A stretch of 64,000 nt of DNA, taken from assembly GCA_021234155.1 (NCBI GenBank), contig JAJEKV010000028.1, positions 17,844,825-17,908,824 of the forward strand. The letters run 5' to 3'. Within the stretch, counting starts at the first letter, position 1. Each line of letters opens with the position of its first letter. Both the position numbers and the translations under genes were made by a program. The notes below the pieces were generated by a model. The model searched no databases. It worked only from the letters and a program-made list of their open reading frames with translations, and was not told the DNA's origin. Positions 14,527-64,000 of this stretch are shown piece after piece. This DNA comes from Isoetes taiwanensis. Taxonomy: Eukaryota; Streptophyta; Lycopodiopsida; Isoetales; Isoetaceae.

Positions 14527-15849
14527 TTACTTATCTAGGCTGAGAACATCGGTAGAGAATAGAATATAGCACAGTCTAACAAAATTTCTAACCAACAGGG
14601 TTTTTGGTCTGCGAGAAAGAGAAAGTAAAGATGCAAAAGAACCCATAATCAATCCACCTGCTACCTTACTATCAGATGGTACTGGTAGATATCGATCTGC
14701 AATTTTTTTGACGAATCGAAGTCCTTGTAATGTCAGCCAATATCCACCTAATCTGTGAATGCTATATCTCCATAAGATGGCTTGAGACTCTTGGAAAAGT
14801 ATTATAATGTTGAGATATAAAGCTTATTATATGAATCCATGGGTTTAGCTTGAGATGCTCTTCGACCTAATAAAACCTATAAACCATATAAACACATTCT
14901 TAACACTGAAACCAAGGACAAAATAAGAACTCCATTTCTGCTGAATGTGTTTCTGATTACTGACAGAGATGCAAGTTGAAAAGCTCTTGTGCATTTTAGA
15001 AAACCTTCTTGGGTAAAGAAACTCAAACACTATCCTGCATTGTTGAATACTCAGGCTTACTTGTGACGGACGCCCTAGAAGAGTTGCAGAAATTGTGATC
15101 CGTCCATTCTGCGACCTTGCTAACCAAACAAATGCTGGCCCTGGAATCAAAGTAAGATATAAGCATGATTGTAAAGGTCTTCCTTTTGAAAACTCGAAGC
15201 AACTCATCTTAGAATGTGCTATTTCCAGAAAGCAAATCTCATCAGTGGTTTACGCATACAAAAACTTATATCAAGAAGATGCTAAAAAAAATGAATCCTA
15301 AATGTTACCAGCGGATGCTCTAGACTTTGTAAGCAGAGAGTAGTTATAAAATCGTAAGCTTGGCAATTGCAAGTCTTGAAATCAAAAAAGAAAAGCATAG
15401 AAAAAGCCACCGTAATGGAATGAGAAAAAGATAGAAGTTCAAACTAACCCTAAAGGAGCCAGCGATGCATATTGCAGTTGGCCATTTTGTGAAGCAACAG
15501 AGCAACCATTTCCGGTGGCCATTTTCCTACATTTGTCTAGAGGATGCACTCCACGGGCCGAACAAAGCGTGCAATAAAGCTTTAGGACTTTATCGACAAC
15601 CCAACAATCTCAGCATAAAGCAAAAGAAACAAAATCAAGTAGTTCAGATGCATCCGCTCCAGAGCATACCTGTCGCAAGTCGTTTAAGAGGCAAGTACTC
15701 CGGGATAACCCTTGATGCACTATAAAGCATGTGGCTATAGCTTCTAGTTCAAGTTCTCCACCTAGCAGGTTGCCGTATTTACTGAAATTCGGAGAGAGGC
15801 CATAACCTCTTGCAGAGTTATGCCATTCACTCTTCAAGCTCAGTTTCAT
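14527..15849 (-). pseudogene. Multi-exon gene or captured gene fragment, unidentified
   Basis: Exon-like blocks on the minus strand with matching phases. 15849-15670 starts MKLSLKSEWHNSARGYGLS and has a GTATGC donor. 15522-15449 starts MATGNGCSVASQNGQLQ. 15358-15309 reads RFYNYSLLTKSRASA. 15140-15061 reads PAFVWLARSQNGRITISATL. About 14787-14527 reads AILWRYSIHRLGGYWL, then KIADRYLPVPSDSKVAGG. Blocks two, three and four splice in frame with standard GT-AG signals. The joins of the first and last blocks are unsure, and the last runs to a stop that may be intronic. No family is recognised. The exons lie inside the proposed Helitron in its orientation, so gene capture is a fair reading. Confidence 0.4.
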
Positions 15850-16542
15850 AGTTGATAAGCTGCAGATGTTGCACCAAATGCCCTAATGTATGACGGATAA
15901 AGAACGGGAGCAACGGCCATGGCTAAGCAACCCGAGAGCTGAAGCAAGCCTGCCTGCATGATCGTGGCACCCTCCAACCAAAATGAGATAGGGAAGTTCA
16001 AAATTTGACGGTCTTGATCTCCTCAGTTTGAAATCAAGGGTAGGAGATTGTTGTATACATGTATACAAAGGGCACATGAAATTCAAGTTCAAATTGGAAT
16101 TCAAATTCGAATTTGAGGGATACTGGGTGGGAGGGAAAATTTGAAATTCAAATTTTTACACAAATTCGTGTTGGTTTTTCGGCCATAACTTTTGCTAGGC
16201 ACCTCCAAATCGAGTGATTTCAGATGCAATGGATTCATCTCGATGAGAACTATCCATTGGGTACCCATCTTGATATGTTTGGAGCTGTGGTTAGAGAGCT
16301 ACACTCGTTTGAATGAAAACGGGTTAAAGAGCATGTGCAAAATGCATTAATTGCAATTTGAGCACATGTTTGTACTATTTGGTGGAAAACGGTTTTTGGA
16401 AGCCAAAACACGAATATTGACTTTTGGGAGGACAAAAAAGGGGCAAGTTGGCGGAAAATTTTTTTAGGTTGTATACATGTATCAGGGGGTGCACAAATGG
16501 GGGCAGCAATTTGTATATCGAAACATTTTTAATAATGTATAG

Positions 16543-16543
<1 letters not shown>

Positions 16544-16592
<49 letters not shown>
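16544..16592. repeat. (TA)n tract with TG interruptions
   Basis: TA-rich junction between the proposed Helitron 5' end and the Penelope-like element's left repeat. Confidence 0.9.
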
Positions 16593-16595
<3 letters not shown>

Positions 16596-19432
16596 GGTCC
16601 AGATCCTGTTTCCAAGATCCAGACATCCAGCCATGCACAGGATATCCTGCCATGCCTAGACTTATCAGCTCCTCATTAAGAAAGGAGATGAATCTTGGAA
16701 GACACTATACAAATAGCATTTAAAAGGTCAACAAACTAAATTCGTTCATAACCAAACAAAGTCTTCAAGACAATCATGTTATGTCCAATGGAAATCCCAC
16801 TAAAGGTTTGAACCTTCAACAGAAATATTAGTATATTATTTCATTATTCCCAAATGTATTTATCAAGTATTACTGTTCTCTGAAACCTGTGTTTGAACTT
16901 AGATAACTCTTTCAATATGTTCCCACTGATTAGTAAATGTATGATTTTTTATATATAGTTCTTGTAAAGTAACTTCGATTCTTTACATTTTATCAGATAA
17001 TGGTTCTAGTTCTTTGCTTCCATGTTTGTATTAAAATTTTCCATGCATTTCGAACACCTAACTGTCAATGCATAACTTTAAATTTCTGGACAGTGACATC
17101 AATCATGAAAACATAGTTCAAATATGTTTTTCAAAATTCTTTTTCCATTTTTTTGCATTTTCAAATAAAGTAAGGTAACCAGCATTCCGTATATATGCCC
17201 GATCATTCAGAATGTATCAGACTTAAAATCCTAGATATATAACCTATAAAACTTTGAAGAAATGTTAAAGCCCTTTTTCAGATATCCTCTGCTACTTTAG
17301 ATAGAAATTCCTGTTCAATCTCCATTGCCCTTTGTTCAACTTCGCACTTGCTACATTTAAAATCAGGGAAAAGATAAAACCTGTATATCTTAGACAAAAC
17401 CTTTTGATCTTCACATCTAGCATCCTTCTTTCTACAAATGACATATTTGAACCATTTCTCTTTGCTGATTATGCATTCCTTTGAATGCTTCATGCTTCCA
17501 AAAACATTAGAGTAGGTAGAGTAGAACCTGGTTACCTGCAATCCAAACAACCAAACATTAGCCAAAATATGGGTAAAGCTGGAAGGGATTAGCAGGTAAG
17601 CTATAGGGTCTACTGGCTTAACGCCCTTCAAACCTAAACAAAATGATAGGTCTGCAGAAAACATAAGTATCATTTGACTGTGCAAATAGATCTAATAGTT
17701 ACAGAATTCTTGCATCAATTAAAAGGTTATAAGCACTTCCTGTATTTGCCACAGTGTTACCATATTTGCTGATACGTCCATAATCAATCAAATTAACTGC
17801 TCACATATTATACTCAGTATAGACAGAAGATTACTTTCCTGTTGCAGCTAAAATTCGTGACCTCCTTTGAAGCTCATGTTGCTGTAGATCATAGTACAGA
17901 TTTATGCAGTGGCATGTGTTCAATTCTTGTTAACTCTCAATCTCAGACCCCCCATTTTTTTGCTGTTCTAAATGGTGTAAAACTAATCTATTAAACATTA
18001 AAACCTATTAACTACTTCATCTTTCATGGATTGAAACCAAAACCTGATTCAGTGGCATCGCCTCATCTTCAAGAAAATCGTCTCCATTCCCAGAAATGTT
18101 GATGCTGCTTCCAGCTTCCATGTTTGCAACTTTTTCAGCTCGATGTGCAACCGCCGCTAGACATGCTTCAATGCTCGATCCAGGGCGTTTGCCTGGATTA
18201 GATTTCTTGGCAAATATATCAATTCCAGCATTCTTGGCCATCTCCTCTAACACCGATTTTTTAATAGTGACCCCATCATTTTTGCAATCAATTCCTTTCT
18301 CTCTAAGCAGAGCAATGATATCCGCCTTTGTTGGATTGACATTACTTGAGCCTTGGTCTTGGCATTGCGTCCAAAGCAGAGCGCGAGTGCTGATATACTT
18401 AGGAGGATTCTTATTATAAAGCCATGAACCCTAATATTCAAAATATAATGTTTCATCCCTCCGGTCATTTCAAATCTGCGTGCCAAAAAAATTATACCGA
18501 ATCTCCATTTTTCTTGATTTAGGTTGCGTGCTGATCAAGCTTTGCCAGTTCCCACGGGATATGAGCAGAGGATGAATCAATTTGGCGTGCATATGCGGAA
18601 CCGACCACCATCATTCAAGATGTGAATGAGGTGCGCTATCATTTCGATCCCTAAAACCTTTGCTTAGGAATCGGTCTATGCCGATGTATGCCTCCGCCTA
18701 TGTTGAATCACGAACCCTAAAATTTTATGCTAAGCATATCAAGTAAAATCCTATTCCCACGTATTGGGGTCAATTTGTTACGCTTAAAAACCGTAAAATA
18801 TACCCGTATTCCCATCAAGCGGGTGTTAGGTGACATTAAATATAATGTGGTTTTATCATTTATCACGAAAAGTATGTAGGTCAAGTCCTATGCTTAAGTT
18901 TTATAGCCCTTAGTGTATTCAACATGTTTTTATCTTAACATTATAAATGAGCTATGATATCAACCAGCAAAGGCAATCTATTAGTTAATTGAACCTGAAA
19001 GATGACTTACCCATCCACAAGCCACCAGCTAGTATTTATGAAGGCTACGTGGCTCTTGTAACTATATTATCCCCACCAGATATCCACTAGATAGTGCCAA
19101 ATGTACCTAAGGGACCAAGTTAGATATCCTTGGAATTAAGAAATATTATACCGTGATTATTCACTTATATAGGTAATGTTAAAGACATCTTGGTTCCATA
19201 TTTCAGATAAAACCTTGCACTCCATACCAGGGGTGCCTGTCTTTAATTGAGGCTTGTCTTATACTCCCTAGGAATCTACCATATGTCATACATAGTATGT
19301 CAAGTATTCCTGTGTTAGAAAATGTCGTATGCTTGTATTAGATTAAAGAAAGTATGTGCATCATAACAGGAAATTACTTCATGAACTAAGCCAACCTTTT
19401 GGATATATATGTATATATGTATATATATATAT
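16593..19432 (-). repeat. PLE terminal direct repeat, copy 1 (downstream)
   Basis: Nearly identical to 23792-26627 over its whole length, with scattered substitutions and small indels. It carries a frameshifted copy of the N-terminal ORF. Confidence 0.93.
17278..18365 (-). pseudogene. PLE N-terminal ORF, copy 1, frameshifted
   Basis: Exon 1 is 18365-18044 and exon 2 is 17535-17278, with the same splice sites as copy 2 (donor AATCAG|GTTTTG, acceptor GATTGCAG|GTAACC). Compared with copy 2 it lacks two bases shortly after the start codon (CCAAGACCAAGG against CCAAGACCTGAAGG), which shifts the frame and brings a stop within eight codons. The rest of exon 1 and all of exon 2 are conserved, so the loss is recent. 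Translation from an internal ATG (MLEEMAKNAGIDIF) is possible but speculative. Confidence 0.6.
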
Positions 19433-19440
19433 GTATTTTT

Positions 19441-19545
19441 TAACCTACCTCCTACCGGGAGGTGAGGAGGGTGCCTTATCCTAAGTATATAGGGATGCAG
19501 AGGGATCCCTATATACATAGGGACCCTCCGCACCACCTATATGTT
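19441..19545 (-). other. PLE 3' hairpin region
   Basis: A short inverted repeat, GGGATCCCTATATACATAGGGACCC-like (arms about 19,500-19,525), follows the RT stop codon, then a GGAGGTAGGTT motif and a (TA)n tract. A related sequence in the same order occurs on the plus strand at 60,130-60,220, right after an RT C-terminus fragment, so it appears to be the conserved 3' end of the unit. Confidence 0.55.
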
Positions 19546-19564
19546 TTAAATCTAGACATCAGAG

Positions 19565-21749
19565 TCAGTGCTGATATTGAAAAGCATAATATAGATAATA
19601 GGGGTACCTGTATTTTTTAAGTTCGTTCCTCAATGTACCCAAATCATATTGCAGACCAGGGAAGTTCGCGTTTTTGCAGACCTTGTTTAAAGACTTCCAA
19701 ACGTCCTTCTCATTGAAACCCTTGCTAATAAATACCTTGACCAACATTCCTAGATCTTCAGCAGCCAGTAGAGGGTTATTATGCACGTACATATATGGCA
19801 TGACTTGTGACATGATCACATTGCAAGCCATTATGTAAGGTCTACATCCACATGCATGGATAAATTTGGTGGCTTCAAAAGGTAGATTGTCCCTCTTATC
19901 ATATCTATAAGTACAGTATCTCCCTTGAAAACGATTGACCACTTCAATTGTCATATTAAGGAAGTTGACTTTCCTACCTATTGTTGTATTCTGATCCAAT
20001 ACCCAGTATTCGGTTTCATCCTTGATCTTGAGTATGTCAAGATCATATATCATATCATCTCGTGCATTTTCACCATTCAGCCCTAGATACGATCTCATGT
20101 AATAGCTGTTGATGCCAATCAGATCATCAATGTATCTATACGTGTCACCAAAGGATGCCGCTTCAATCATTTTACCATTTCTAGCCAGCTTTAGTATAAA
20201 CTTTAGTTCGAACATGGCAAGATAGAGATTGCACCATGCAGGACTGCACGGGAATCCCATTGGTATACCCCTGCACTGTTTCCAAATTCCCTCTCCCATG
20301 CTTAGGAAGCAACTGTTTAAAAGCCATATGTTAATTTTAACAAACAGTTCTTGACTCATAAGCTTCCACTTTTTTCCTTTTGGATCAATGTTTTTCCATT
20401 TGACTTTAACCCTGTCACTGCCAGTGAGACTGTACCACATTTTGCTTTTACTGTTTAAACTTACTTGGCTTTTCCATACCATATTGCAGATTTCCTGTAT
20501 AATACTACCAATTCCATGCTCCCCGTTTAATGGTATGTTTTCAAAACACTTGGTAATGTCACATACAAAGACCTCATCAATTTGTCTTGGTAGATTACAG
20601 ACCAAGTCATATATTGAGTTAATTACCCAAGCTGCTTTGATTTTGTGTTGGCTAAAGAGGTTGAATATGGCACACTTTTCGTGGCATATTCTTGGCCATA
20701 GCTCCAATATGGCGTTCGGACCAAATTTTGCAACTAGTGTAGCAATTCGAAAAAAAATGGTGTTGTGTGCGTTCATTTATCCATCTATATTCCCTTTTGT
20801 GTGCCTTATAAATGCCTAAAAGGTATGGTAGCTCAGTATATGCAAAGTTATTTTCTTCAATCAATGCCCTAATATCCTCCTCAATTTTTTTGTTGATATC
20901 TGCTGGCATGGCTTCAATCCTTTCAAAATCATGACTGTTTAGTCTTTTATATGCCTCCTTCCTGATGTGTACTGGGCATATAAAGGATGCATTGTTCGCT
21001 GCCTTGTCTATACCCGAAATATAGAAATGTTCATTGAGCCATTTCACATTCTTCAACACATCAGGATCATTTATCAGAAATTTGCATTTATTGTCAAAAT
21101 TGGTTTTGACAAGATCAGCAGCCTCTCGTTTGGCTTCCTTATATATTGCAATTTTGCATTTTTCAATCAGTGCAGATTCCTTCTCATGAAATGAAAATCT
21201 GTGTAAACTGAAGAACTGCTCAATAGTAGTCTTCATTTCTCTTTTGAAATGCTGCATAGTAAATGGTTGGTCCGGGATGTGGTTTAATCCCATGACAAAG
21301 CATTTTCTTAGAGATTCATTGTGCACAATGTCAAGGCATGTGGTTCTGATATGGCCGATGTCATGATCTACAAACCTTGCCAATGTGGGATTATTGCATG
21401 GGCAGTTAAGCTCACTTGATTGTGCAAAAATGGCTTTGGGTTTATAGAACATGCTTTTTATGTTGTTGATATATCTCCATCCAAATATGGAATTTTCATA
21501 AAGGAGTAACCCTTTCTCCCTAAAGCACTCTTGCAGCTGATTTTTAAAGAATATATCGATCTTCAGCTTGCTGATCAGTTTAGAGAAATAGCAGAAATGT
21601 ATAAACTTCTTTTTATCTTTATCCTTGGAGAGTGTGAGCCTCCATCTCCCGTCCTCATTTAGAACCAAGGATCTGGTCTTCATCTGGATTATGTTTTGTA
21701 AAAAGTGATCAAGAAGATCAGTTTTCATATGTAATGCCATTTTAGGCAT
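19565..21749 (-). pseudogene. Penelope-like reverse transcriptase, one frameshift
   Basis: The upstream block (21749 to about 20,776) starts MPKMALHMKTDLLDHF. It contains a CxC motif region (ELNCPCNNPTLARF, then DIGHIRTTCLDIVHNE), a DKAANN block and the K-HK pre-RT motif LPYLLGIYKAHKREYRW. A single extra A in the ATAAATG run near 20,776 shifts the frame. The second block (20776-19565) carries RT motifs A (FVCDITKCFENIP), B (GIPMGFPCSPAWCNLYL), C (TYRYIDDLIG) and D (GRKVNFLNMTI), ending in a thumb-like ELKKYRYPYYLYY. The joined protein would be about 727 residues. YIDD and DKAANN-type motifs fit Penelope-like RTs, possibly near the CxC-bearing Naiad/Chlamys clade; a phylogeny would settle it. 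It would copy element RNA into DNA in the nucleus. No nuclease domain is seen. Confidence 0.75.
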
Positions 21750-22342
21750 TGAATCAGAGTGTTTGTTTAAGGAGTATTCCCTTGCCCCCTTTCATGTTGT
21801 TAGTCAATATTATTATACTAAGTACCATAATACAGTAGCAACATTTCGATATAATAATTTTAAACAGATATTTTTAAAGAGAGGCAAATAGAATAAGTGT
21901 AGATTTGTACTCGTACCTTAAAAGAGACTGTTTAAATGTCAAAATCCCGACTGTCGATGTCGTATGCCCTGTTTGCTGAAGTTGTTGCTTTTGTCACGGA
22001 TCTGTCACCTTGGCTAGAATCATCAATTTGTATAATATCAATGTCATGGTCGTGGGACGTTATGTGGATCGCTAGATTCAGCCTGGTGGTAATGCGATCG
22101 TGGTGGCATGATGATGGAACGCTTTTGGGCTGTCCGGGTTATTTGGATCTTTTTTCTCTTGTTACTAGTTAGCCGGGGCTACTCAAATCCTCGGCCGCTT
22201 ACCAATGAGGAACTTAAGTGGTTTAATGGTCTTTTCGGGATATCCGTAAGCCTTGTATTCCCAAATTCCATATTCAGATCTGTATTTGTGTCCTCGAGTA
22301 TTTGATGACCATTTTAATCGGGGTATCTCTTACCCTAAGATA

Positions 22343-23545
22343 TCAAGTAGAGCTATCCTGACATTCTTTAATGGTGCAAAGTGGATAGTAGAGATGAGAA
22401 GAAGCCAAATCTAACAATTGTAGGCAGCTTCGCCATGCCTTCTCGAGGTTGTTCATGAGAAACCATACACCATGGTCCAGCCATATTATGGTATCCGGAC
22501 AAAGTCCCCATTTTCCTTGGCCATTTTTCCACATGTGCACTTAATAAATGGGCATAGAGTCCTCCACATCTTCTTAATGTAAAAGTCATGTCTTCTTTCT
22601 TGATTTTAGCTTGATGCCCTTTTTGGCCAATGCTTATGGTCATACTATTTCGCATTCCAATCCAAAACATTTTGCGGGGAAGGGTAATACCACTTCCATT
22701 TTGTCAACCCTTCTAATGCAGGTTGTCAACATCTTCAAAGGCACGTTTAACATCTTCATCGAGAGATACCGCCAATTTCTTCCAAGCTTCCACACTTATT
22801 GGGGCCGAACCCCAAGGTTCTTGCTTTTCCATAAAGCCCATTTTTATATTGCTCCCCATGCGATTCAACTTCTCTTTGAGACATAATTGGAAACCTTCCA
22901 CAGGTTAAATAGGTTTAGCATTGCAATAGGAGGTTTATCATTCTCATCTTTCGACTGTTAGTTTTCTCTACGTGTACTCTCATTGTTGGTAGTAAACGAC
23001 TTCTATATTCCTCGGGCAACATGTTGACATTGAATAGGCGATTATTGCTCAAATTGTTTGGCACAATGGTGGCCTGCGACAAAGCGCCCTACCCGGACCT
23101 TTCGGTTGTTCTTTGGATGGAAAAGTAAATTTCACACCGTTTGCCCTTTTCGGTCAAAGTAAGACATTTAACAAATGTCTTTAGGTTGGCAACCTCCCCT
23201 TTTCGTTGCATTAAAAAGAATGCGTGTAGGTAGTCTATTGTACCTGCTATCAATAATGCCCTTGCATGCCTCCATATTGTAGTTACTTTGTGCAAAACCA
23301 GCAACCATTGTAAGCCAGTTGCTCATACCCATATGGATAATAGCAGAGTGGTCACTGTTGGGAACATTTACTTCCTTGTGAATAATATATTGATGCAGTT
23401 CGGGACTGAGAATACATGCTATCACTGTTTGTACTGCCTGATTTGGGGCAGGGCGCCCCAAAAGATTGTAACCATGCGCCTTTAATTCTGTATACCATTC
23501 ATTAGGAGCAATAACTCCTTCAGCATTGCTATTGCCTGCAACCAG
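22343..23545 (-). pseudogene. PLE internal ORF between N-terminal ORF and RT, frameshifted
   Basis: The best block, 23545-23168, reads GRPAPNQAVQTVIACILSPE, then NWLTMVAGFAQSNYNMEACK and RILFNATKRG, after a likely TTGCAG acceptor. The frame changes near 23,195 and continues as VANLKTFVKCLTLTEKGKRC. Further blocks at 22901-22713 (SAPISVEAWKKLAVSLDED) and 22670-22368 (TFTLRRCGGLYAHLLSAHVE) are in other frames. The consistent composition suggests one decayed coding region of about 350-400 residues. I recognise no domain. Its position between the N-terminal ORF and the RT, on the same strand, makes it part of the element. Confidence 0.5.
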
Positions 23546-23791
23546 GGCCTGTTTATTTGTATATCCTTCCTATAAAAATAAGTAGAACATTAGTATTAAT
23601 ATTTGAATATAACACATATTTCATGCATAATTATTTACTCTAAGTCTCTTTTTGCCTTATATAAAAGATACGAAAGTTTTATCAACCACAAAGCTTCCAA
23701 CAGTATGATGTTTGACCTCCATGTCTAAATGCATAGTGCCACCAAGTGTTCACTGCCAGTTAAACCAGCAAACTGAAATCACTGAATATAT

Positions 23792-26627
23792 ACAGGTCCA
23801 GATCCTGTTTCCAAGATCCAGACATCCAGCCATGCACAGGATATCCTGCCATGCCTAGACTTATCAGCTCCTCATTAAGAAAGGAGATGAATCTTGGAAG
23901 ACACTATACAAATAGCATTTAAAAGGTCAACAAACTAAATTCGTTCATAACCAAACAAAGTCTTCAAGACAATCATGTTATGTCCAATGGAAATCCCACT
24001 AAAGGTTTGAACCTTCAACAGAAATATTAGTATATTATTTCATTATTCCCAAATGTATTTATCAAGTATTCTTGTTCTCGAAACACGTGTTTGAACTTAG
24101 ATAACTCTTTCAATATGTTCCCACTTGATTAGTAAATGTATGATTTTTTTTATATATAGTTCTTGTAAAGTAACTCCGATTCTTTACATTTTATCAGATA
24201 ATGGTTCTAGTTCTTTGCTTCCATGTTTGTATTAAAATTTTCCATGCATTTCGAACACCTAACTGTCAATGCATAACTTTAAATTTCTGGACAGTGACAT
24301 CAATCATGAAAACATAGTTCAAATATGTTTTTCAAAATTCTTTTTCCATTTTTTTGCATTTTCAAATAAAGTAAGGTAACCAGCATTCCGTATATATGCC
24401 CGATCATTCAGAATGTATCAGACTTAAAATCCTAGATATATAACCTATAAAACTTTGAAGAAATGTTAAAGCCCTTTTTCAGATATCCTCTGCTACTTTA
24501 GATAGAAATTCCTGTTCAATCTCCATTGCCCTTTGTTCAACTTCGCACTTGCTACATTTAAAATCAGGGAAAAGATAAAACCTGTATATCTTAGACAAAA
24601 CCTTTTGATCTTCACATCTAGCATCCTTCTTTCTACAAATGACATATTTGAACCATTTCTCTTTGCTGATTATGCATTCCTTTGAATGCTTCATGCTTCC
24701 AAAAACATTAGAGTAGGTAGAGTAGAACCTGGTTACCTGCAATCCAAACAACCAAACATTAGCCAAAATATGGGTAAAGCTGGAAGGGATTAGCAGGTAA
24801 GCTATAGGGTCTACTGGCTTAACGCCCTTCAAACCTAAACAAAATGATAGGTCTGCAGAAAACATAAGTATCATTTGACTGTGCAAATAGATCTAATAGT
24901 TACAAAATTCTTGCATCAATTAAAAGGTTATAAGCACTTCCTGTATTTGCCACAGTGTTACCATATTTGCTGATACGTCCATAATCAATCAAATTAACTG
25001 CTCACATATTATACTCAGTATAGACAGAAGATTACTTTCCTGTTGCAGCTAAAATTCGTGACCTCCTTTGAAGCTCATGTTGCTGTAGATCATAGTACAG
25101 ATTTATGCAGTGGCATGTGTTCAATTCTTGTTAACTCTCAATCTCAGACCCCCCATTTTTTTTTTGTTCTAAATGGTGTAAAACTAATCTATTAAACATT
25201 AAAACCTATTAACTACTTCATCTTTCATGGATTGAAACCAAAACCTGATTCAGTGGCATCGCCTCATCTTCAAGAAAATCGTCTCCATTCCCAGAAATGT
25301 TGATGCTGCTTCCAGCTTCCATGTTTGCAACCTTTTCAGCTCGATGTGCAACCGCCGCTAGACATGCTTCAATGCTCGATCCAGGGCGTTTGCCTGGATT
25401 AGATTTCTTGGCAAATATATCAATTCCAGCATTCTTGGCCATCTCCTCTAACACCGATTTTTTAATAGTGACCCCATCATTTTTGCAATCAATTCCTTTC
25501 TCTCTAAGCAGAGCAATGATATCCGCCTTTGTTGGATTGACATTACTTGAGCCTTCAGGTCTTGGCATTGCGTCCAAACAGAGCGCAGGCGCTGATATAC
25601 TTAGGAGGATTCTTATTATAAAGCCATGAACCCTAATATTCAAAATATAATGTTTCGTCCCTCCAGTCATTTCAAATCTGCGTGCCCAAAAATTATACCG
25701 AATCTCCATTTTTACTGATTTAGGTTGCGTACCTGATCAAGCTTTGCCAGTTCCCACAGGATATGAACAGAGGATGAATCAATTCGCGTGCATATGCAGA
25801 CCGACCACCATCATTCAGTACCGTAATGATGTCTGCTATCATTTCGATCCCTAAAACCTTTGCTTAGGAATCAGTCTATGCCGATGTATGCCTCCGCCTA
25901 TGTTAGATACGAACCCTAAAATTTTATGCTAAGCATATCAAGTAAAATCCTATTCCCACGTATTGGGGTCAATTTGTTCTGCCAAAACCGTAAGATATAC
26001 CCGTATTCCCATCAACGGGTGTTAGGTGACATTAAATATAATGTGGTTTTATCATTTATCACGAGTATGTAGGTCAAGTCCTATGCTTAAGTTTTATAGC
26101 CCTTAGTGTATTCAACAAGTTTTTATCCTAACGTATAAATGAGCTATGATCTCAACCAGCAAAGGCAACCTATTAGTTAATTGAACATGAAAGATGACTT
26201 GCCCATCCACAAGCCACCAGCTAGTATTTATGAAGGCTACGTGGCTCTTGTAACTATAGTGTCCCCACCAGATATCCACTAGATAGTGCCAAATGTACCT
26301 AAGGAACCAAGTTAGATATCCTTGGAATTAAGAAATATTATACCGTGATTATTCACTTATATAGGTAATGTTAAAGACATCTTGGTTCCATATTTCAGAT
26401 AAAACCTTGCACTCCATACCAGGGGTGCCTGTCTTTAATTGAGGCTTGTCTTATACTCCCTAGGAATCTACCATATGTCATACATAGTATGTCAAGTATT
26501 CCTGTGTTAGAAAATGTCGTATGCTTGTATTAGATTAAAGAAAGTATGTGCATCATAACAGGAAATTACTTCATGAACTAAGCCAACCTTTTGGATATAT
26601 ATGTATATATGTATATATATATATATA
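23792..26627 (-). repeat. PLE terminal direct repeat, copy 2 (upstream)
   Basis: Partner of 16593-19432 in the same orientation. It carries the intact version of the spliced N-terminal ORF and leads directly into the internal ORFs and RT. Confidence 0.93.
24479..25568 (-). CDS. PLE N-terminal ORF, two exons, 193 residues
   Basis: Exon 1 is 25568-25245 (108 codons) and exon 2 is 24736-24479 (85 codons plus stop), split by a 508-bp phase-0 intron with donor AATCAG|GTTTTG and acceptor GATTGCAG|GTAACC. The protein begins MPRPEGSSNVNPTKADIIAL, has a helical N-terminal part (DGVTIKKSVLEEMAKNAGID), a conserved exon end (EAMPLNQ), and a Cys-bearing second half (VICRKKDARC, FKCSKC) that may bind zinc. 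No known family is recognised. Related exons occur at 17.3-18.4, 57.7 and 61.7 kb. It is probably an element-encoded accessory protein like an ORF1, though a host-derived gene copied with the element is possible. Confidence 0.6.
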
Positions 26628-27060
26628 TCCTTATATATATACAATTATATTGGGTGCCACAAATGTTGGCAGTGCCACAAATGATGTAGAGATTGATGCC
26701 ACAAAATGTTGGTAGAGATTGATCTCGGCCGTCCATCTTTTGAGATGGACGGTCCAGACGGTGCCACCTCGTAACTCCCCAAGCATCCCTCTTGTTGGTG
26801 TACCAAAATATTGGTACAGATTGATCTCGGCCGTCCATCTCTGAGATGAACGGCCCAGACGGTGACACGTCGTAACACCCCAAGCAACCCCCCTTATTTG
26901 GGGCTTTTCATCTGGGCCCTTGAAATTGGGGCATTTCATCTCGACCGTCCATCTCAAATATTGTGTATAAAGTGTGTGTAGACACTTTAATCCTGGCCGT
27001 CCATTTTAGATCTGGACGGCCCACGTTAAAACCCCCAAATAATCCCCTGCCTTCGTCCAG
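26628..27060 (+). mobile_element. Helitron-like 5' terminal region
   Basis: After the (TA)n at the PLE edge the sequence starts TCCTTATATATATACAATTA, then GGGTGCCACAAATG and two CGGCCGTCCATCT...GAGATGGACGG hairpin boxes. An inverted, closely similar copy lies at 51,420-51,764, and shorter relatives at 43,540-43,873 and 55,735-55,855. TC at the 5' end next to TA fits a Helitron; no matching 3' end to the right could be found. Confidence 0.45.
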
Positions 27061-27099
27061 TTTCAGATCCGTCCCCTGCCTTCCTATTATCACTTATCA

Positions 27100-30000
27100 C
27101 TTCTTGCTCTACCGTAGTTGCTGGCGCCATCGACTGTTGTTTCATCTGTCTTTGTGGGATTGTAAGTAAGACCATCGTCAAGGCGGCCAAGGTCCAATGG
27201 AGCGGTGTCGAGAATCGAATCGACCTGCTTGCTCCGCAGTCCTCTGGCACTGATTCGAGTAGCATGGAAGCTCCTGGCAGGAAACCCAAGCGATATTTCC
27301 CAAGCCAGGTACTGCTTTCATTCAATTTTGAGCTTCCGGATATAGAATCCACCACCTCTCTGGCTCTCTTCCAGCTTTTCAAATTTTCCTAAATAAACTT
27401 CGTGTTTGCATCACTCAAAAAGATATTAGAGCCGGTATTCCTTCTTTCCTTGGTAATATCTAATTTCGTTCTTTAGTTCTGCAATAAATAATGTAAGGGA
27501 GAGAGTACTTGCTGCCTTTGACAACCGAGGATCTGCAGACCTAAAGTAGCTTCATCTAGGTTAGAATTTCGAACTTGGTAGGAAGCCCAAATTTACAGCA
27601 AGTTATATTACCAGGGAAACGTATCTGCCAACATATTTCTTCTAGCATTCGATGTTTAGGCCTGTGTGGCAATAATATAACAGGGGTACAGAGTTTTATC
27701 ATATGTTAAACTGCAGTTGCATAAATACGCCTGGTTGCAAGGTAGAGGAGGAATTTTTTTCTTACGATTGCCAGTGCCGGCATTGCCCTGTGCGAAATTT
27801 ACTTTGGCGCATTTCTGGGTGCCTGCTTTTCGTGATTTCAAGCAGATTTGGGCCTATCTTGGTAGTGGCTCTTCTCACGATTCGTCTAGCCCAGGTCAGA
27901 GGAGAGATCAAAAGACAGATGGGAGTTGCGCGAATTTTTTATCTGCACATGCCTTCAGCTTTTTAACTGAGGGTTATTGTGGATTCCTCATGGAAAAACG
28001 CCGTAACGAAGTATTTTAGGCAACAGAAAAAGTGTCTTCAAAATGCACTGTGAATGTTTGGTCTGGTCGTTCTTTCTTGATTCAGGGTTGTGGCAGCTGC
28101 GGCATGTTCAGGTCGCATGCCACTGATCATCATCCGACATTATCTGCTTCTCGATAGATTGCCTGCTTGCTTGAAGCTGTCGCCAGATCTTCCGCCACAA
28201 ATGAAGCTGCCCCTGCTTTCCCTTTCCGGTACTCCTCTTTTTCCTTCTAATTCTCAAATTTGATCACTTATAGTCATGTTCTTTGCTTAGTATTTGGAGA
28301 TCGATTATGCCAACAACCCGAGCCATGGACCTGTTCTTTGCTTAGTTTGGGTAGCAAGGAAATCTGGATAAAAAACAGGTCCAATGCTAATCCGGTGAGT
28401 AGAATGTTTAGTCTTTGAGTTCTTCTGTGATTTTTCCTTTGATCATGCTGTTGTAGTTAAGTTGTAGTTAAGTTGTACTGTCATATTTCATTCTAGTTTA
28501 TCTCTGTACATTATATGCTCATTTTAACTCAGGTCTTATAGCAAAGTTGCAATGAAGTCAAGTATGAAGCTAAGTTGGAGGAGGGGATGTAGTTGTGCAT
28601 ATAGAAGCTGCTTTAGCTTCTATATGCTTTGACTTTAGCTTCTCGATTATGATGGATCGCATAAGATCTTTGTTGATTAAATTTTATTTGGATTCTGAGC
28701 ATGTTTCGAATTCTGTTGTATGCGTTTTGTACATGTTAAAACATAGTGTTGTACATACAAGAGTATATTAATTGCTTATTCTACAACACAATTATTACAA
28801 CGCTAATTGACATGCGTTTGGAATGCAGCAATAGTCCTGTTAATCAGGCAAGTGCAAAGGTGACACTGACCCAAATGTTTTGCATTGTCTTCAAACAAAT
28901 GAGATCTGATACACAGGCAAGTAAATGCATAAAGGAGGGTTGTACTCTACTCCTTAGTTAGTGCACACACATTAAAGATATGAGCCAGCACGAGTCCTAT
29001 GATCATTGTTTTTGGCATTTTATTCTTATAAACTATAAGCTAGTACGTTTTAGCCATTTTGGTTTAACAGGTTTTGTATCATGAGAGGAAGAAGTTCAGA
29101 GTCCATCAGTCATTTTTAGTTTGTTAGAAATGGGCTTCATTGCATGTTTATTTCAACCGCTAGATCTCCCTCACAGGATATGAATATATGATTTCAGAGT
29201 GTGTGCAGTAGCTATAGGATCTTAGGCAGAGGATATTGCACGATTAGCATGCAACATTTTTGCACAGTGAGCTTTGCTTTATTTTGTGCGAGTTGAAAGA
29301 TATGATTGGGATGTAGGGTTTACAGTTGCAGTTATATATTGTTCCAGTTATATATTGTTGGGCTCCACTGATTTTGTTGTTGGTTTATTGATTGGATCCA
29401 GGAACCGTGGTGCTAGATAGGACTGTAAAAATGGATGAGGTGCCATGTCAATTATTGTTTAAGGTATGCCCAAGTCGTAGTTGTTAACAGATTTCTTCTG
29501 ACTCAAGCATTTTTGTTTCCCTTCTTCTGGATCTGCAATTATTTCTTCCCTTTTCCTGATAGCAATTTCTTCACTTCTTGGATTGATGAGAACGTCTTTG
29601 CAGGGAATTTATGGTTACCCCATTGAATCTGATACGAAGCAGGAATTTGCAACTATAATAAGCCGTGCAGTGCATAGCAATTTCATGTTCTCAACCTGTT
29701 GCAATTGTCCATTGCAAAACAGGTTGCGAGATCATTGGCTTCCGCAGCAACAAGGTTGAGCCAGGTACATCAACGACGGATGTTACTATTATGTTCGTGG
29801 AGTTATCCAGTTTTTTATGGAGGCAATTCTATTCTGTATCTTGATGCAACTTCTTGCTGGACGAGAGCACAACTACATTCTTTAGGTCTCCATTTCAGGA
29901 GTCATTTAGCAGCCCACTAAGACCACACAGATTTGATGATATTCGTAATTCTTGTTTGAGATCTTGATGTGCTTTCTGCAAATGTTCTCGTTGAATGCAT

Positions 30001-51420: not shown

Positions 51421-51764
51421 TAAAGGGGTCAATTTGGGGGCTTAACGTGGGCCGTCCAGATTTGAGATGGACGGCCGAGATTTAAATGTCTACACACTCT
51501 GCATCAAGGGGCTTATTTGGGGCTTTTGTTGTGGGCCGTTCATCTAAGAGATGGACGGCCGAGATCAATCTGTACCAATATTTTGGTACACCAACAAGAG
51601 GGGTGCTTGGGGAGTTACGAGGTGGCACCGTCTGGACCGTCCATCTCAAAAGTGGACGGCCGAGATCAATCTCTACCAACATTTTGTGGCATCAATCTCT
51701 ACACCATTTGTGGCACTGCCAACGTTTGTGACACTCAATATAATTGTATATATATATATATATA
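51420..51764 (-). mobile_element. Helitron-like 5' terminal region, inverse of the 26.6-kb copy
   Basis: Three CCGTCC...GGACGG hairpin boxes, GTACCAATATTTTGGTAC, and the end ATATAATTGTATATATATA match 26,628-27,060 in inverse orientation. The right edge runs straight into (TA)n and the CTAG terminus of the next element, so this end was itself invaded. Confidence 0.5.
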
Positions 51765-51792: not shown

Positions 51793-51884
51793 AAATGTTG
51801 GGAACATCTGTGGATGGAAACCTATTTAGCTCAGACTCATTCTTATAAATCTAATATAATAGAAACCAAGCCTATCATTGCTAG

Positions 51885-53300: not shown

Positions 53301-53689
53301 AAATTTGACTCTAGTGTGGCATACAATGATGTTAAATGCCAAATCGAGAAGTTTAACTATGCTTTTTGCACGTAGAAAAGAAGTCGACTAAAACTTACCT
53401 TTAATATCTCCACAATTTGAATGCTTTTCCAAATCGTTCTCCGAATCTTCGACTATGTCGAAGGCATCATTGTTGTCTTCTTTGTGCAGCCCTGTTGCCC
53501 TAAATATTAGCTCACGACTTTGCTTGCTTCAAGCAATTTGGGTAGAGCAAAATGCCAAACACCTTTACAAAATCTTCTATCGATTAGAACCCAACCCGGA
53601 CCTTCATCTTTGTTAAGAAGATGGCGGATTTGGATGCCTTAATCACGAAGCTCCATACCTATGTGCCATAGATGTTGTTTACTGTGACA

Positions 53690-57600: not shown

Positions 57601-57738
57601 CCGGCCATGTGACTGCAAGACAGAGGAAAGCGGAATCTAGAAGCTTCGGGGCAGATAAAACTGCCAGCAGGTTATAACTAGCAAGAAACTTTGCTTTACA
57701 GTCTGTTTTTGCAAAGATCTAACAATGGCGCTCAGGCG

Positions 57739-58084
57739 ATGGCGCCTCCGCCTCCAGGCATGAAGAGCAAACTTAATAGGCATGAGATGATGGCTTTGAT
57801 CAAGAATGCAGGGCTGGATCTTGCAGCCTTATGCAAAAAGGAGAATGAGGTATTGCACAGTTTAGCAAGCAGTTTCTTATTGGCATAGTGGACAAGTGTA
57901 TGCTGGACGTGATTGCTACCACAAAGAAGAATGGTGACATGGTTAAGAATGTCTTACAGAAGGCCGGATACAGCAAGCTGATCATAGACACATGCAATGA
58001 TCAAGGCACAGAGGCCCAGGATTATGAGCAACAGGACGAATCAAATGCTGAAGAAACTGAAAATAGGAACTTCTTCTAAATCAG
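57739..58084 (+). pseudogene. PLE N-terminal ORF exon 1, copy 3, frameshifted
   Basis: Starts MAPPPPGMKSKLNRHEMMAL and continues NAGLDLAALCKKENE. A frame change follows near 57,850, and the other frame reads IAQFSKQFLIGIVDKCMLDV, in line with the SIAQPPKKLLQEIVAKYNL segment of copy 4. The exon ends LLLNQ in a third frame at CTAAATCAG|GTTCAG, the same LNQ|GT junction as the other copies. Downstream at 58,361-58,371 the exon-2 acceptor (GGCTGCAG|GTAACC) is present. It is a decayed relative of the PLE ORF on the opposite strand. Confidence 0.55.
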
Positions 58085-60023
58085 GTTCAGTGTTAGTAGA
58101 TTCTAAATTCCTAAAATAATAATAGATTGTTGATCGATGAGAACACCCTAACAAAGGGTCACTAACTGGTACACAGACTTGTATGTTTACCAATTCAAAT
58201 GTTTGATGATTAATATTGTCTTTGAATAAAAATTCTGAAGCAAATATCTGGTGAAGGGCGATAAGCCATGCTAAGATTACTGCTTACCTGTCAGCCCTTT
58301 CCTCTTTACCATGTTTTATGCTAATGTTGGACTGGTTGGCTGCAGGTAACCAATCTTGCATCTCCAGATTTCATTCGTTTATGGATGTCTTGGAGCAGTG
58401 TTACGTATAGAAGATTGCCCTTTGGGCTGAAAGCAATGGATCAGCATTTCTGGTTTCTATTTAAATGGGAGTCTTTGAACTTTTCTTAACCATCTGAGGT
58501 AACTGGTCTTACATCTCCAGTTTTCTTTTTGAACGATTGGATGGTTGGAGACAATGGACTACATAAGAAAAACAACGGTCTCGACTTGCGAGACCACACA
58601 AAGCGGATTCTGTTACTATTTGATTTTGTTGAATTGTATCTTGCGAAAGGATGGTAAACTCTATGCATTTGAAATTCTGAATTCATGCTCATAATACTGT
58701 TGTATGCTAGCTGACTGGATATTACTGCTCAAGGCATTAAACAATGTAAGCCTTTTATTTTGGTTTTTTTTGGCTTAATGGAAGGAAAGATCAATCTACA
58801 TATCGTTCTATCTTATTTAAAGCTAGTTAATGATTTTCTGGCAGCTAGTTAATTATTTTCTGGCAGTAAAACTGGTGAAATTATAGCATGCATGCCTAAA
58901 GTCAGCACGCTGCTAAACAGAATTAATGGTAGCATCTATGTCCCCTTGGTGGTGGTTAACAATGCATTACTAGTAATATAGCATAAATAATTACAAGCTA
59001 GAAAACAGGAATAATTATGCAGCATGAGCTCATGGCTAGGAGACATCATATTAACTAGTAAATGTAATGACGAAAATAGTAACAAGTTGATTTTGTGCTA
59101 TTCAAGCATAATAGATCTGTTCAGAATAGTGGATCTGCTGAAAATAAGTGGAGGTTTGGCTTTCCATGAAATGAGTTTATTGCCCAGGCTGAGGTAAAGC
59201 AGCATTGCTTAGCTCTTAGAAAAGGTTATAGATGGCACAAATTTCTGTAATAGTGTAATAATAGGCCATGGACGGGTCTATGGTATGTCATGGACAAGCT
59301 TTTTGGCTAATATGGAAAATGAATAAATAACACTTACAAAGTGTTTAGTCAAAGGACTTCCAAGGCTCCCCTAGACTATGTCTAGGGACTGATAAGTTCC
59401 AGAGCCCATGGTCTGGAATGGCTAAGTCTTTTGGATAAGGCTAAGGCCAAGTTTATATATTCTGTGATTTCAGGATGCCAGTATAACTGGCATGGGCCTT
59501 GGTAGTCCAATGAGAATTAAAATTTTGGAAGGGTATGATCCAAGTAATTCTTTATCTCTATTTTCTTTAATTTGTTTATCAGAGGATATTTAACCACTGA
59601 TTTTCAGATTCCATTGATTCTCGAAGACATACAAAGGAACGTGGCCCAGCCGCAAGCCGCAGTAAATAAGGGTATGGCGGGCGTAGTATGATATCCCTTG
59701 GAAACAAAGTAAGTACAGTGGTTCTTTCTCAATTCACTCCGAGGTCTTATATTATATGGTAAATTCGTATATTACAAGGTAGGCATTCATATGAATTGTC
59801 TGCTACTAACCAAAATATGGCCATTGGTCAAAAAGTTGCCTTAGGGCTTCTAAAGTAATTGGCAAATCTGCCAGCATAAATTAAGAACGGAGTTCATCTC
59901 CAAGTATCACTAAATTCAGCCTCAAGAAATGTTACAGTCTTGGATGGTCAACCTGTTTCAAGGGTACAGAGTAATATTGCAAAGGCTGCTATAAAGATAC
60001 ACCAGCTGTCAAGAATTCATTGA

Positions 60024-60110
60024 AATTCGGAGCACTCCCAGGACTCAAGGTCCACCGAGCAATTCTACAAAGAGAACTCAAAGCATACAGGTATTTCTCA
60101 TTTGTCTTGC
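60024..60110 (+). pseudogene. PLE reverse transcriptase C-terminal fragment
   Basis: Reads LKFGALPGLKVHRAILQREL and then KAYRYFSFVLL, aligning with the RT end FPGLQYDLGTLRNELKKYRY on the minus strand. Both are followed by the same hairpin motif. Only the last 25-30 residues survive. Confidence 0.6.
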
Positions 60111-60215
60111 TAAATTTTAGTACAGTTGGCAGGGGGATCCCTAGAGCATAGGGATCCTCCTGTCCCATTGCTATCTAGGGTTCTACTTTGCCTTCCGGTT
60201 GGAGGTAGGGTTTAG

Positions 60216-61430
<1,215 letters not shown>

Positions 61431-61744
61431 TTGAAACCTCGATGGAGGCGGCAAATCATAACAGGGAGAGACAAAATCATAGCTTCGAATATTTCGGCAT
61501 CATGGCAAGGCATGGCGACAGCCCCACTAGTCTATCTCTGGACGTATTTGGTAAGCTCAAATATTCTGTCAAATTTAGCTACAAGAGAGCGCATCAACAC
61601 TTGCAAAATCGCTGTGGGCAATGACATCCTTATTTGGTGCCACGGTACAATGGCATTTTCCCTATCTGCGACATGTTCTTAAGGCTGTTATCCTCTCTGA
61701 ACTATTTCTGGAAATGCAAGCACAGAGATAGCCGCTTGCCTGCT

Positions 61745-62119
61745 ATGCCAAAGGAGAAAAGCACGCCCAACAGGGGCTTCACCAGAGCAAAGCTCATTGA
61801 TCTGATTGATAAGAGCGGGATTGACCTTGCTAAGATTTGCAAGATGAAAAACCAGTCTATTGCTCAGCCCCCTAAGAAGCTGCTTCAGGAAATAGTTGCC
61901 AAGTATAATCTAGCTGAAACTACAAGCAAGGGAGTTGGAGATATCAGTGAATATTTGAGCAAGAACAAGGAGCCAATGTGTAATGAGGGCACCAACCCAG
62001 CAGCAAACTTGGTGGACGACCAGGAGATGGTCAACATTGCAGACTCTGTTGGTTTGGAAGATGGCATGCAAGAGGAGGACGAGGACTCAGAATTTGAAGA
62101 TAGCCTTCAACTCAACCAG
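61745..62119 (+). CDS. PLE N-terminal ORF exon 1, copy 4
   Basis: A 125-codon open exon starting MPKEKSTPNRGFTRAKLIDL, then DKSGIDLAKICKMKNQ and PKKLLQEIVAKYNLAE, with an acidic end (MQEEDEDSEFEDSLQLNQ) just before the donor CAACCAG|GTTTTC. It shares the start, the T-(K/R)-A-x-(L/I)-I-x-L core, the GID motif and the LNQ|GT exon end with the ORF at 24,479-25,568. The matching exon-2 acceptor (GGTTACAG|GTAACC) is at 63,120, but that frame stops after 15 codons (VTGSSSPFSYVNCDV), so exon 2 is either shorter or decayed. The unit runs off the right edge, so a downstream RT cannot be checked. Confidence 0.5.
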
Positions 62120-62317
62120 GTTTTCTGTCTTATAATAGTATAAAGTGCTCTAGTTTCTTCCCATTAATATTGCTAAGATGTAGTTTAACTTTGATCTGAG
62201 ATTCTCCTTTGCTGGCATGAACTAAGTGGTCTCAAACTAGGCTTGACTGTGTAGTGCAAGCCTGCCCATGTGTAGTGTATGCCACGCTTGCCCAAGTCTG
62301 ATTCATTTGGGCAGCAT

Positions 62318-62392
62318 TTAAAGATAGCCTGTAGATATTTTTAAAGATAGCTTGTAGATATTTTTAAAGATAGCTTGTAGATATTTTTAAAT
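62318..62392 (+). repeat. 24-bp tandem repeat, three units
   Basis: AAAGATAGCTTGTAGATATT is repeated three times head to tail with one substitution. It lies in the intron of copy 4. Confidence 0.9.
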
Positions 62393-62399
62393 CTTTAGC

Positions 62400-64000
62400 T
62401 GGTTCGTGGCATATTGATGGCCTTCTAATAACTGATAATTAGTGTTGACATAAGGCCTTCGTGCATTAGGTATAAGATTGGCATAATTGCTGTCACAAAG
62501 TGTGTGGATGATAGCATTTGGTGAACAGGGAATATAAAATATCTGTGAAGGGTAATTCGAATAAGCTAAGTTGTTGGTAGTTAATTTTCTCATTCTAAGA
62601 GTTAGTTTGCTGATATTTAATTATGTCTATTGGGTAAACTTGTAGTGATAGACCGACAGGCAATTTTTTATGGAAAGTGAGTCTCTGGATAGTTCACTTT
62701 TAAGATAGCAGGTTGATGAACTTGTGATCATGATCTTGGCATGTAATGTGGCCATAGGGCCGACAGAGGTTTCAATATAGCATTGCACATGCAGACCATG
62801 CTCAGGTAAAGGTTAACATACAGTTTAACTCTACTTTAACGAGGCAAAGTTGCTGAACCCCACTAAAGGAGGAAGGCGTGACATGAATCTTCCTTCGCAT
62901 GCCATTTGGATGGCTCAGTCCTTCTGTTAAAGGCTATTTACTTATGAATAAATACAGGCTGTAGCTTAAGTTTTCTAGCTTGAGTAGCTTCTAGTATTTG
63001 ACTATAACCCGATTATTCTTAATGGTGAAGGGCTTAAAAGCCATGATTGAACCATCAACACTTGTTAACCCTTGCCTCATTACCAATTTTTGTTGCTAAT
63101 GTTGGTCTGGTTGGTTACAGGTAACCGGTTCTTCATCTCCATTCTCTTATGTGAATTGTGATGTTTGAAGTTTCTGGAAATGGAGGAGCGACTTTATTTG
63201 ATTTCAAGAATCTGAACTTGTCTACCAATGTTTTTATATTTTCGATTTCAAGCATACAAGGTAATATGCTAGCAATAGATCTTGCTCACAAACTTTTGAA
63301 CTGGAGCTGGAAACTCTTGCTCTTTTATCTGGTATTCCTCTGATATACTTTGATACAAGGCCTTTTATTTGCTGTTTGGCCTCGATTTTGAACCAGTAAT
63401 GGGAATTATGGAAGCTCCACCATTATTATTTGAATTGTTGGATGCAGCACATTAAAGCTTTTTTAGGGTAGTGCTAGTTATTTGAGCTTTATTTGCTGTT
63501 GCATGACAAATAACCTGATTAATGAAGGTCTATAAATAGCCATTCATGCAAAGTACGAAATAAACATTGAATGCAACCGCTCAAGTCTCTTGATTTAAAC
63601 ATTGGCTTTTGTACTTTGATTATGGTTGGGTACGCAATGATTATGTGTCTAAATGTCTGAGTTAATCATAAGCTAGTGTGTGCATCCACTAAAATACAAG
63701 GTCTAGTAAGCAATAGACTGATTTAACAACATCTCTTTCAATTATAGCTTTTCAACGTAGACAATTGAATCTACTGTTATAATATAGGTGAAGGCTTCAC
63801 CATAGCTTTTAATTCTAGCTCTCCAGCTTAGATAATAAAATCTACCATTATATAGTTGAAAGCTTAACTAGAAACTTTGCAAGAAAGATCCTTTGGGATG
63901 GATTATGCTGTTTTACATTTTTATGCCGTAAAACTAATGGTTTTCAAGGCTGCCCTGGTCTAGGCCAGGGTCTGATAATTTTTGGGAAAACTGGACATGG
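62400..64000. other. Downstream part of the PLE-derived unit, window edge
   Basis: Contains the exon-2 acceptor at 63,120 and, at 63,940-63,980, a CAAGGCTGCCCTGGTCTAGG and CTGATAA block matching 59,360-59,395. No other coding region is supported. Confidence 0.4.

Follow-up and report, generated by a model that had tools for sequence, protein, structure and literature searches.

A 64-kb stretch of the genome of the aquatic quillwort Isoetes taiwanensis, referred to here as the window and the source of all coordinates below, carries on its minus strand one copy of a retroelement family that we consider quite likely to be Penelope-like. The usual form of the element is repeat-unique-repeat (R-U-R), it encodes three open reading frames (ORFs), and it would be copied from an internal start site primed on TA microsatellites. 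Membership in the Penelope-like elements is probable, the named clades having been compared by their descriptions and the reverse transcriptase (RT) through one mussel fragment. The Penelope-like reading of the original prediction stands for a retroelement with Penelope-type architecture, that is, direct pseudo-long terminal repeats (pLTRs), a kept intron and a microsatellite target.

Repeat-unique-repeat organization of the family

The original prediction described two 2.84-kb direct repeats around a minus-strand RT region. Self-comparison of the window bears this out: the repeats form one alignment of 2857 columns with 97.66% identity, they are spaced ~7.2 kb apart, and the RT frames lie in between (Table 1). 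We refer to the 5′ and 3′ repeats as R1 and R2 and to the intervening region as U. By eye, the differences between the two repeats are clustered and are often indels. The published description of the assembly gives it as nanopore based and Illumina-corrected (PMC8566536), so some of these differences, together with the frameshift in the RT, may be assembly errors.

The locus had been predicted to represent one 7.2-kb unit plus the start of a second. The relatives in the genome argue otherwise. In a search of 1,658,258,908 bases in 1110 contigs, the RT gave at least 103 scored matches, 50–100% identical, from 3581 first-look candidates. Twenty loci of 9.9 kb were fetched, hand-picked for a range of identity and for mostly open frames. 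A long direct repeat is present in 18 of them, on many contigs, with a spacing of ~7–8.6 kb, and many of the repeats are cut by the 9.9-kb edge. Where both ends are visible, the pLTR is ~2.5–2.85 kb long. Because 18 of 20 loci show the same arrangement, we regard R-U-R as the standard form of the element and not as a chance partial tandem; nine of the ten visible 3′ ends are also the same. One locus with no repeat pair in the fetched stretch (L014) has ORF1 matches farther downstream, outside that stretch. The family is large, old and widespread, and the window locus is one copy of it.

The family is under selection, and ORF1 under purifying selection. Median NG86 ratios of nonsynonymous to synonymous divergence (Ka/Ks), taken over pairs with 0.05<Ks<1.5 only, are 0.13 for ORF1 exon 1 (9 of 66 pairs usable), 0.37 for exon 2 (37 of 66 pairs; range 0.08–0.67), 0.10 for ORF2 (1 of 78 pairs) and 0.09 for the RT (5 of 153 pairs), with ORF1 drawn from 12 of 21 elements and ORF2 from 13 of 20 loci. 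FastTree phylogenies of the RT and ORF1 exon 1 from 17 elements have 13 of 14 splits in common, compared with a maximum of 3 in 1000 label shuffles. For the RT and ORF2, all 10 splits are common to the two trees (13 elements; maximum of 4 in 1000 shuffles). This congruence indicates that the three ORFs travel together.

Coding regions and predicted splicing

In the window, the RT is encoded by overlapping minus-strand frames (20655–21791 and 19568–20776) split by a frameshift. Intact RTs are ~720 residues long, and frames of 693–737 residues are open in 18 of the 20 loci; L009 and L010, whose RT is broken, are omitted from the alignment. The recognizable motifs are CPC, VCDITKCFEN (motif A), GIPMGFPCSP (motif B) and YRYIDD (motif C), of which C-P-C is invariant in all 18 sequences, as is the DD of motif C. 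The Pfam model RVT_1 is found in 18 of 18 RTs at E up to 1, with weak scores (best E 1.3e-5; 24 bits on RT member 1, below the Pfam cut-off of 29.6).

ORF1 agrees with the prediction in its structure: 108 codons, a 508-bp intron and 85 codons plus a stop, giving 193 residues. Each repeat had been said to hold this two-exon ORF. The exons are indeed in both, and the complete ORF is found solely in R1, as a 2-base gap leaves exon 1 of R2 without an in-frame start. An intact pair of exons is present in 12 of 21 elements, counting the window copy with the 20 loci, and the intron between them is 347–683 bp long and constant in position. The 3′ boundary of the intron reads AG/GTAACC in 17 of 19 elements, or in 17 of the 18 able to show it, since the L016 sequence stops short of it. 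When the genome was searched with the joined 193-residue protein, 150 of 738 first-look candidates were scored, so that copy numbers are lower bounds, and 151 matches were found. Each of those listed covers one exon or the other, and no listed match spans the two. Some overrun the junction (reaching residues 1–137 and 97–192 of 193), and at L013 and L020, the loci available, the overrun falls within the intron. As no listed match covers both exons, the intron appears to be kept in genomic copies, which look as if they were made from unspliced RNA or its antisense. Such a template is discussed for Penelope (PMC3846280).

Missing from the original prediction was another ORF, ORF2, of which the window copy retains remnants. 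It is open over 513–562 residues in 13 of the 20 loci (~540 in intact relatives) and contains a cysteine pattern, C-P-x-x-K-C-x-C followed by C-x-D, that is invariant in all 13. No convincing Pfam or PDB match was obtained for these 13 proteins (best Pfam match in one of the 13 at E 0.006; PDB E 0.32), and ORF1 gave no convincing domain in Pfam scans. PDB profile searches with the element proteins, ORF1 included, returned nothing better than E 0.2. Structure predictions run without an alignment produced poor models, with a mean predicted local distance difference test score of 47 for ORF1 exon 1 and 35 for a piece of the RT. A few matches were judged to be chance, as relatives lack them: Lipase_2 (E 2e-4) and DUF3417 (0.0016) in two RTs each, DUF6293_C in two exon-1 proteins (4e-4), Emr1 in one of six tested ORF1 pieces (0.0019) and GerPB in one ORF2 (0.006). 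A SAP-like reading of ORF1 was dropped, with no SAP match in any of 19 members.

How ORF2 and the RT are expressed may be linked to exon 1. The phase at the end of exon 1 is 0, and phase-0 acceptor-like sites also open exon 2, ORF2 and the RT. ORF2 frames start at a phase-0 TAG or CAG, then mostly GAAGG/GAGGG-like sequence, in 12 of 13 cases, and a phase-0 CAG lies ahead of the conserved RT start in 16 of 18. The ORF2 sites are only suggestive, because TAG, where present, is an in-frame stop bounding the frame. There is no methionine ahead of the first conserved block in 6 of 13 ORF2 frames, and none in the first 75 residues of 5 of 18 RTs (L018, L021, L022, L026 and L028). With an early methionine missing in so many frames, an upstream exon seems to be needed, and exon 1, with its ATG and phase-0 end, would be the natural candidate. 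Furthermore, AG/GTAACC is retained in L019, L020, L027 and L028 although exon 2 is not conserved there; the site may therefore be acceptor and donor at once, a stepwise splice site. One possibility, which we put forward tentatively and think rather unlikely to hold in full, is that alternative splicing joins exon 1 to each of the three proteins (ORF1, exon1-ORF2 and exon1-RT) and that ORF2 is a new endonuclease or target-binding protein replacing GIY-YIG. If so, ORF2 with its cysteine cluster would let an element without GIY-YIG insert inside chromosomes.

Element ends and a proposed mechanism of copying

In nine of ten elements (L009, L010, L013, L021, L022, L024, L025, L027 and the window copy), R2 ends at TATATAT and is followed by (TA)n or TA-rich DNA, and in those elements R1 runs on past the same point into U. 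Loci that are cut by the 9.9-kb limit or have no repeat pair were left out of this count, and L009 and L010 show 13 and 22 bases of flank. That R2 stops at the same TATATAT against TA-rich DNA is consistent with reverse transcription starting at a fixed internal site. This terminus has stayed the same over a long divergence, since it is shared by L027, whose RT is 53% identical to that of the window. At the 5′ side, TA-rich flanks are seen in L009, L011, L013, L021, L028 and the window copy.

The window also contains an interspersed repeat in two copies (26632–26857 and 51532–51756) of opposite orientation, 96.9% identical and bearing a (TA)n tail; the tail of the first copy is apparently where the retroelement lies.

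Two RNA structures are conserved and show covariation. The one at the 3′ end of U has 24 pairs; over 20 sequences 92.9% of cells are paired, and 11 pairs have both sides changed (0 of 500 shuffles). In the stem-loop past the 3′ point, 92.5% of cells pair over 18 sequences. Changes on both sides affect 18 cells, a value reached by 0 of 500 shuffles; the count of pairs with such changes is not unusual (119 of 500 shuffles). Both structures were obtained from the alignments used to score them, which favors them, and those alignments consist of related sequences. For the 3′ RNA, an alternative hairpin with good pairing and hardly any covariation was rejected.

We propose the following mechanism. 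A promoter in R would give rise to a tandem RNA, whose spliced versions would be translated and whose unspliced form, or its antisense, would serve as template. The RT complex would bind both conserved structures of this RNA, the one that closes U and the one that follows R. Its primer would be a DNA 3′ end within a (TA)n microsatellite, annealed opposite the TATATAT of the RNA; copying would then start at this internal site, and R2, U and R1 would be written into the target. As no nuclease is recognizable in the element, it would either use breaks or gaps in the TA repeats or have ORF2 do the cutting. A precedent is the anole element PAc (PMC11167929). Its reverse transcription begins at fixed internal positions located at a stem-loop, its targets are AT-rich, and its copies take the form pLTR-ORF-pLTR and carry a tail. 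The quillwort element fits a PAc-like plan in its R-U-R form, in the TATATAT end that abuts (TA)n and in the hairpin directly 3′ of that end.

Several observations weigh against a Penelope-like family copied in this way. At the level of the loci, L026 has no repeat pair within its 9.9 kb, R2 of L011 stops ~100 bp early (the sole exception among the ten), the aligned 5′ boundary has no clear TA flank in L020 and L027, and R1 of L009 begins inside R, which is a 5′ truncation. At E up to 1, neither the 18 RT nor the 13 ORF2 proteins gave a GIY-YIG domain. A cmscan search of Rfam over window positions 15500–28000 at E up to 5 returned no hammerhead and no other convincing match, and the visible 3′ ends have no telomeric repeat, with a TA-rich flank at 9 of 10. 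Prokaryotic RT models also match the three RTs tested, weakly (group II, E 0.01–0.06; Cas-associated RT, E 2e-5 to 2e-4). Support for the Penelope-like kinship of the RT, which is probable, comes from architecture and the mussel fragment.

Elsewhere in the genome, GIY-YIG matches occur at 140 or more places. Of 263 PF01541 candidates, 150 were scored, and the 140 matches listed all fall outside the 20 loci and the window. Four GIY-YIG loci were looked at: L031 and L032 contain no [YF]xDD RT motif in a six-frame scan, and L029 and L030 were read by eye. ORFs near the matches in L029 and L031 resemble, by eye, a Helitron-type helicase.

Table 1. Coordinates of the retroelement and its decayed relative in the window
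Feature	Position	Strand	Remarks
(TA)n microsatellite	16535..16586	+	At element 3′ end
R2, 3′ pLTR	16587..19436	-	End at TATATAT abutting (TA)n
ORF1 exon 2 in R2	17278..17535	-	Protein identical to R1 version
ORF1 exon 1 in R2	18038..18358	-	No in-frame start
Conserved RNA structure	19438..19555	-	3′ end of U, just ahead of TA-rich R2 start
RT ORF	19565..21791	-	Two frames, frameshift near 20776; motifs A, B, C and CPC
ORF2	21932..23569	-	Broken in window copy, open in relatives
Conserved stem-loop	23750..23785	-	Directly 3′ of inferred start of reverse transcription (TATATAT^TCAG...)
R1, 5′ pLTR	23786..26628	-	2.84 kb; holds complete ORF1; preceded by TA-rich DNA
ORF1 exon 2	24479..24736	-	85 codons and stop; starts GTAACC
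ORF1 intron	24737..25244	-	508 bp, phase 0
ORF1 exon 1	25245..25568	-	108 codons; ends PLNQ; donor CAG/GTTTTG, phase 0
TA-rich flank	26629..26650	+	At element 5′ end; related repeat 51532-51756 has (TA)n tail at matching place
Decayed relative, exon-1-like ORFs	~57.7 kb and 61.7-62.1 kb		
Decayed relative, RT C-terminal match	~60.0 kb		
Decayed relative, 3′ RNA structure and (TA)n	60.1-60.5 kb		

Plus-strand positions 57700..63200 hold another, decayed relative of the element, recognized partly by eye. Also on the plus strand, 51863–53375 contains long overlapping open frames of low complexity, rich in Phe, Pro, Ser and Leu, in what is apparently a pyrimidine-rich repeat tract, and 6242–8242 contains a 666-residue open frame that reads by eye as a zinc-finger/hAT-type transposase-derived protein.

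Affinities and comparison with known elements

An RT profile was searched against 1677 sequences, a set without controls from long interspersed nuclear elements or group II introns and without named Penelope-like sequences; the best of 400 shuffled controls reached E 1.8. It picked up a contiguous 53-residue RT fragment derived from mussel (GIPMGTNCAP) at E 9.4e-8 and a TERT exon of the same genome at E 0.0017. The mussel type we take to be the Naiad group of Penelope-like elements, and the CPC motif and long stretch between motifs A and B of the quillwort RT presumably resemble Naiad/Chlamys. By tblastn, no relatives were found in viral, phage and prokaryote collections, and pattern scans of viral contigs found none. 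A pattern scan gave one match, on a mussel-derived contig within a symbiont metagenome-assembled genome. This contig, filed under a Bathymodiolus bacterial symbiont, carries a broken RT (L037, 3280–3308, minus strand) of a type known from animals, and it is probably host contamination in the prokaryote database.

It is improbable, in our estimate, that the family is a separate retroelement class whose similar form arose by convergence. The weak or missing RT matches in Pfam, NCBIfam, PADLOC and PDB would be in keeping with such a class, as would the two further ORFs without a recognized domain and the empty tblastn searches, but the RT profile does pick up the mussel fragment, taken to be of Naiad type, and pLTRs, intron, proposed internal start and microsatellite target are all Penelope-like. 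If R were LTRs, the element would be a true LTR retrotransposon or derived from one, and the R-U-R form and fixed 3′ end would agree with this; we consider it very unlikely, given that the scanned ORFs gave no family of gag, protease, integrase or RNase H at E up to 1, that the element ends are not TG...CA, that the RVT_1 match is weak and that the intron is kept. Least credible of all is a local tandem duplication in which the two-exon ORF is a host gene picked up by chance and has no role in mobility; although a 193-residue ORF without a recognized domain is an odd cargo, the R-U-R form recurs at 18 of the 20 loci and across many contigs, the ORF1 and RT trees agree far beyond the shuffles and ORF1 is under selection.

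Within the Penelope-like elements, the quillwort family appears to be a new form, because it has three ORFs, its pLTRs of ~2.5–2.85 kb carry a predicted spliced ORF, GIY-YIG was not found and its 3′ end is fixed at TA microsatellites. With many intact frames, internal TA ends and no GIY-YIG, the family offers a test of how such elements locate their target DNA and prime on it, and the intron retained by genomic copies is relevant to the question of how introns persist when propagation passes through RNA.

The closest known groups are Naiad/Chlamys, Dryad, the Penelope/Poseidon type and the endonuclease-lacking elements. Naiad/Chlamys elements have a long stretch between motifs A and B, a microsatellite preference and members in the green lineage; work by Craig et al. 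in 2021 reportedly gives them an N-terminal endonuclease and a CxC motif. The quillwort element shares with them the CxC-like CPC before the RT, the long A–B stretch and the microsatellite preference, and differs in its two extra ORFs and in that no GIY-YIG was found in the RT ORF or ORF2. Dryad, from conifers, is likewise a plant Penelope-like element and differs in being listed as endonuclease-bearing, within the Penelope/Poseidon group (via PMC9033089). The papers found to name both Penelope and Isoetes are, judged by title, not about such an element.

With the Penelope/Poseidon type, represented by PAc of Anolis (PMC11167929) and by Adineta copies (PMC3846280), the quillwort element shares the pLTR-ORF-pLTR form, AT-rich targets and introns that can persist, and, judged by its ends, it would also share a fixed internal start by a stem-loop. 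It differs in having three ORFs, in that no GIY-YIG or Rfam hammerhead was found, and in a pLTR of ~2.5–2.85 kb as against ~0.2 kb (218 bp, PMC3846280). Endonuclease-lacking Penelope-like elements are described from bdelloids (Athena/Terminons), Selaginella, pine and spruce (PMC9033089, PMC12477314, PMC6431247). They have no endonuclease domain, and none was recognized in the quillwort element; both have more than one ORF, and a lycophyte member is known. The bdelloid and spike-moss elements are described as telomere-associated (PMC12477314, PMC6431247), whereas the quillwort copies end in TA microsatellites, many of them far from contig ends, and are R-U-R. Before the giant rotifer Terminons, the coding plan of Penelope-like elements was long seen as one ORF (RT and GIY-YIG) or two without endonuclease, in 4–6 kb (PMC6431247). 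The quillwort family widens the described plan to three co-inherited ORFs, one of them intron-bearing and located inside the repeat.

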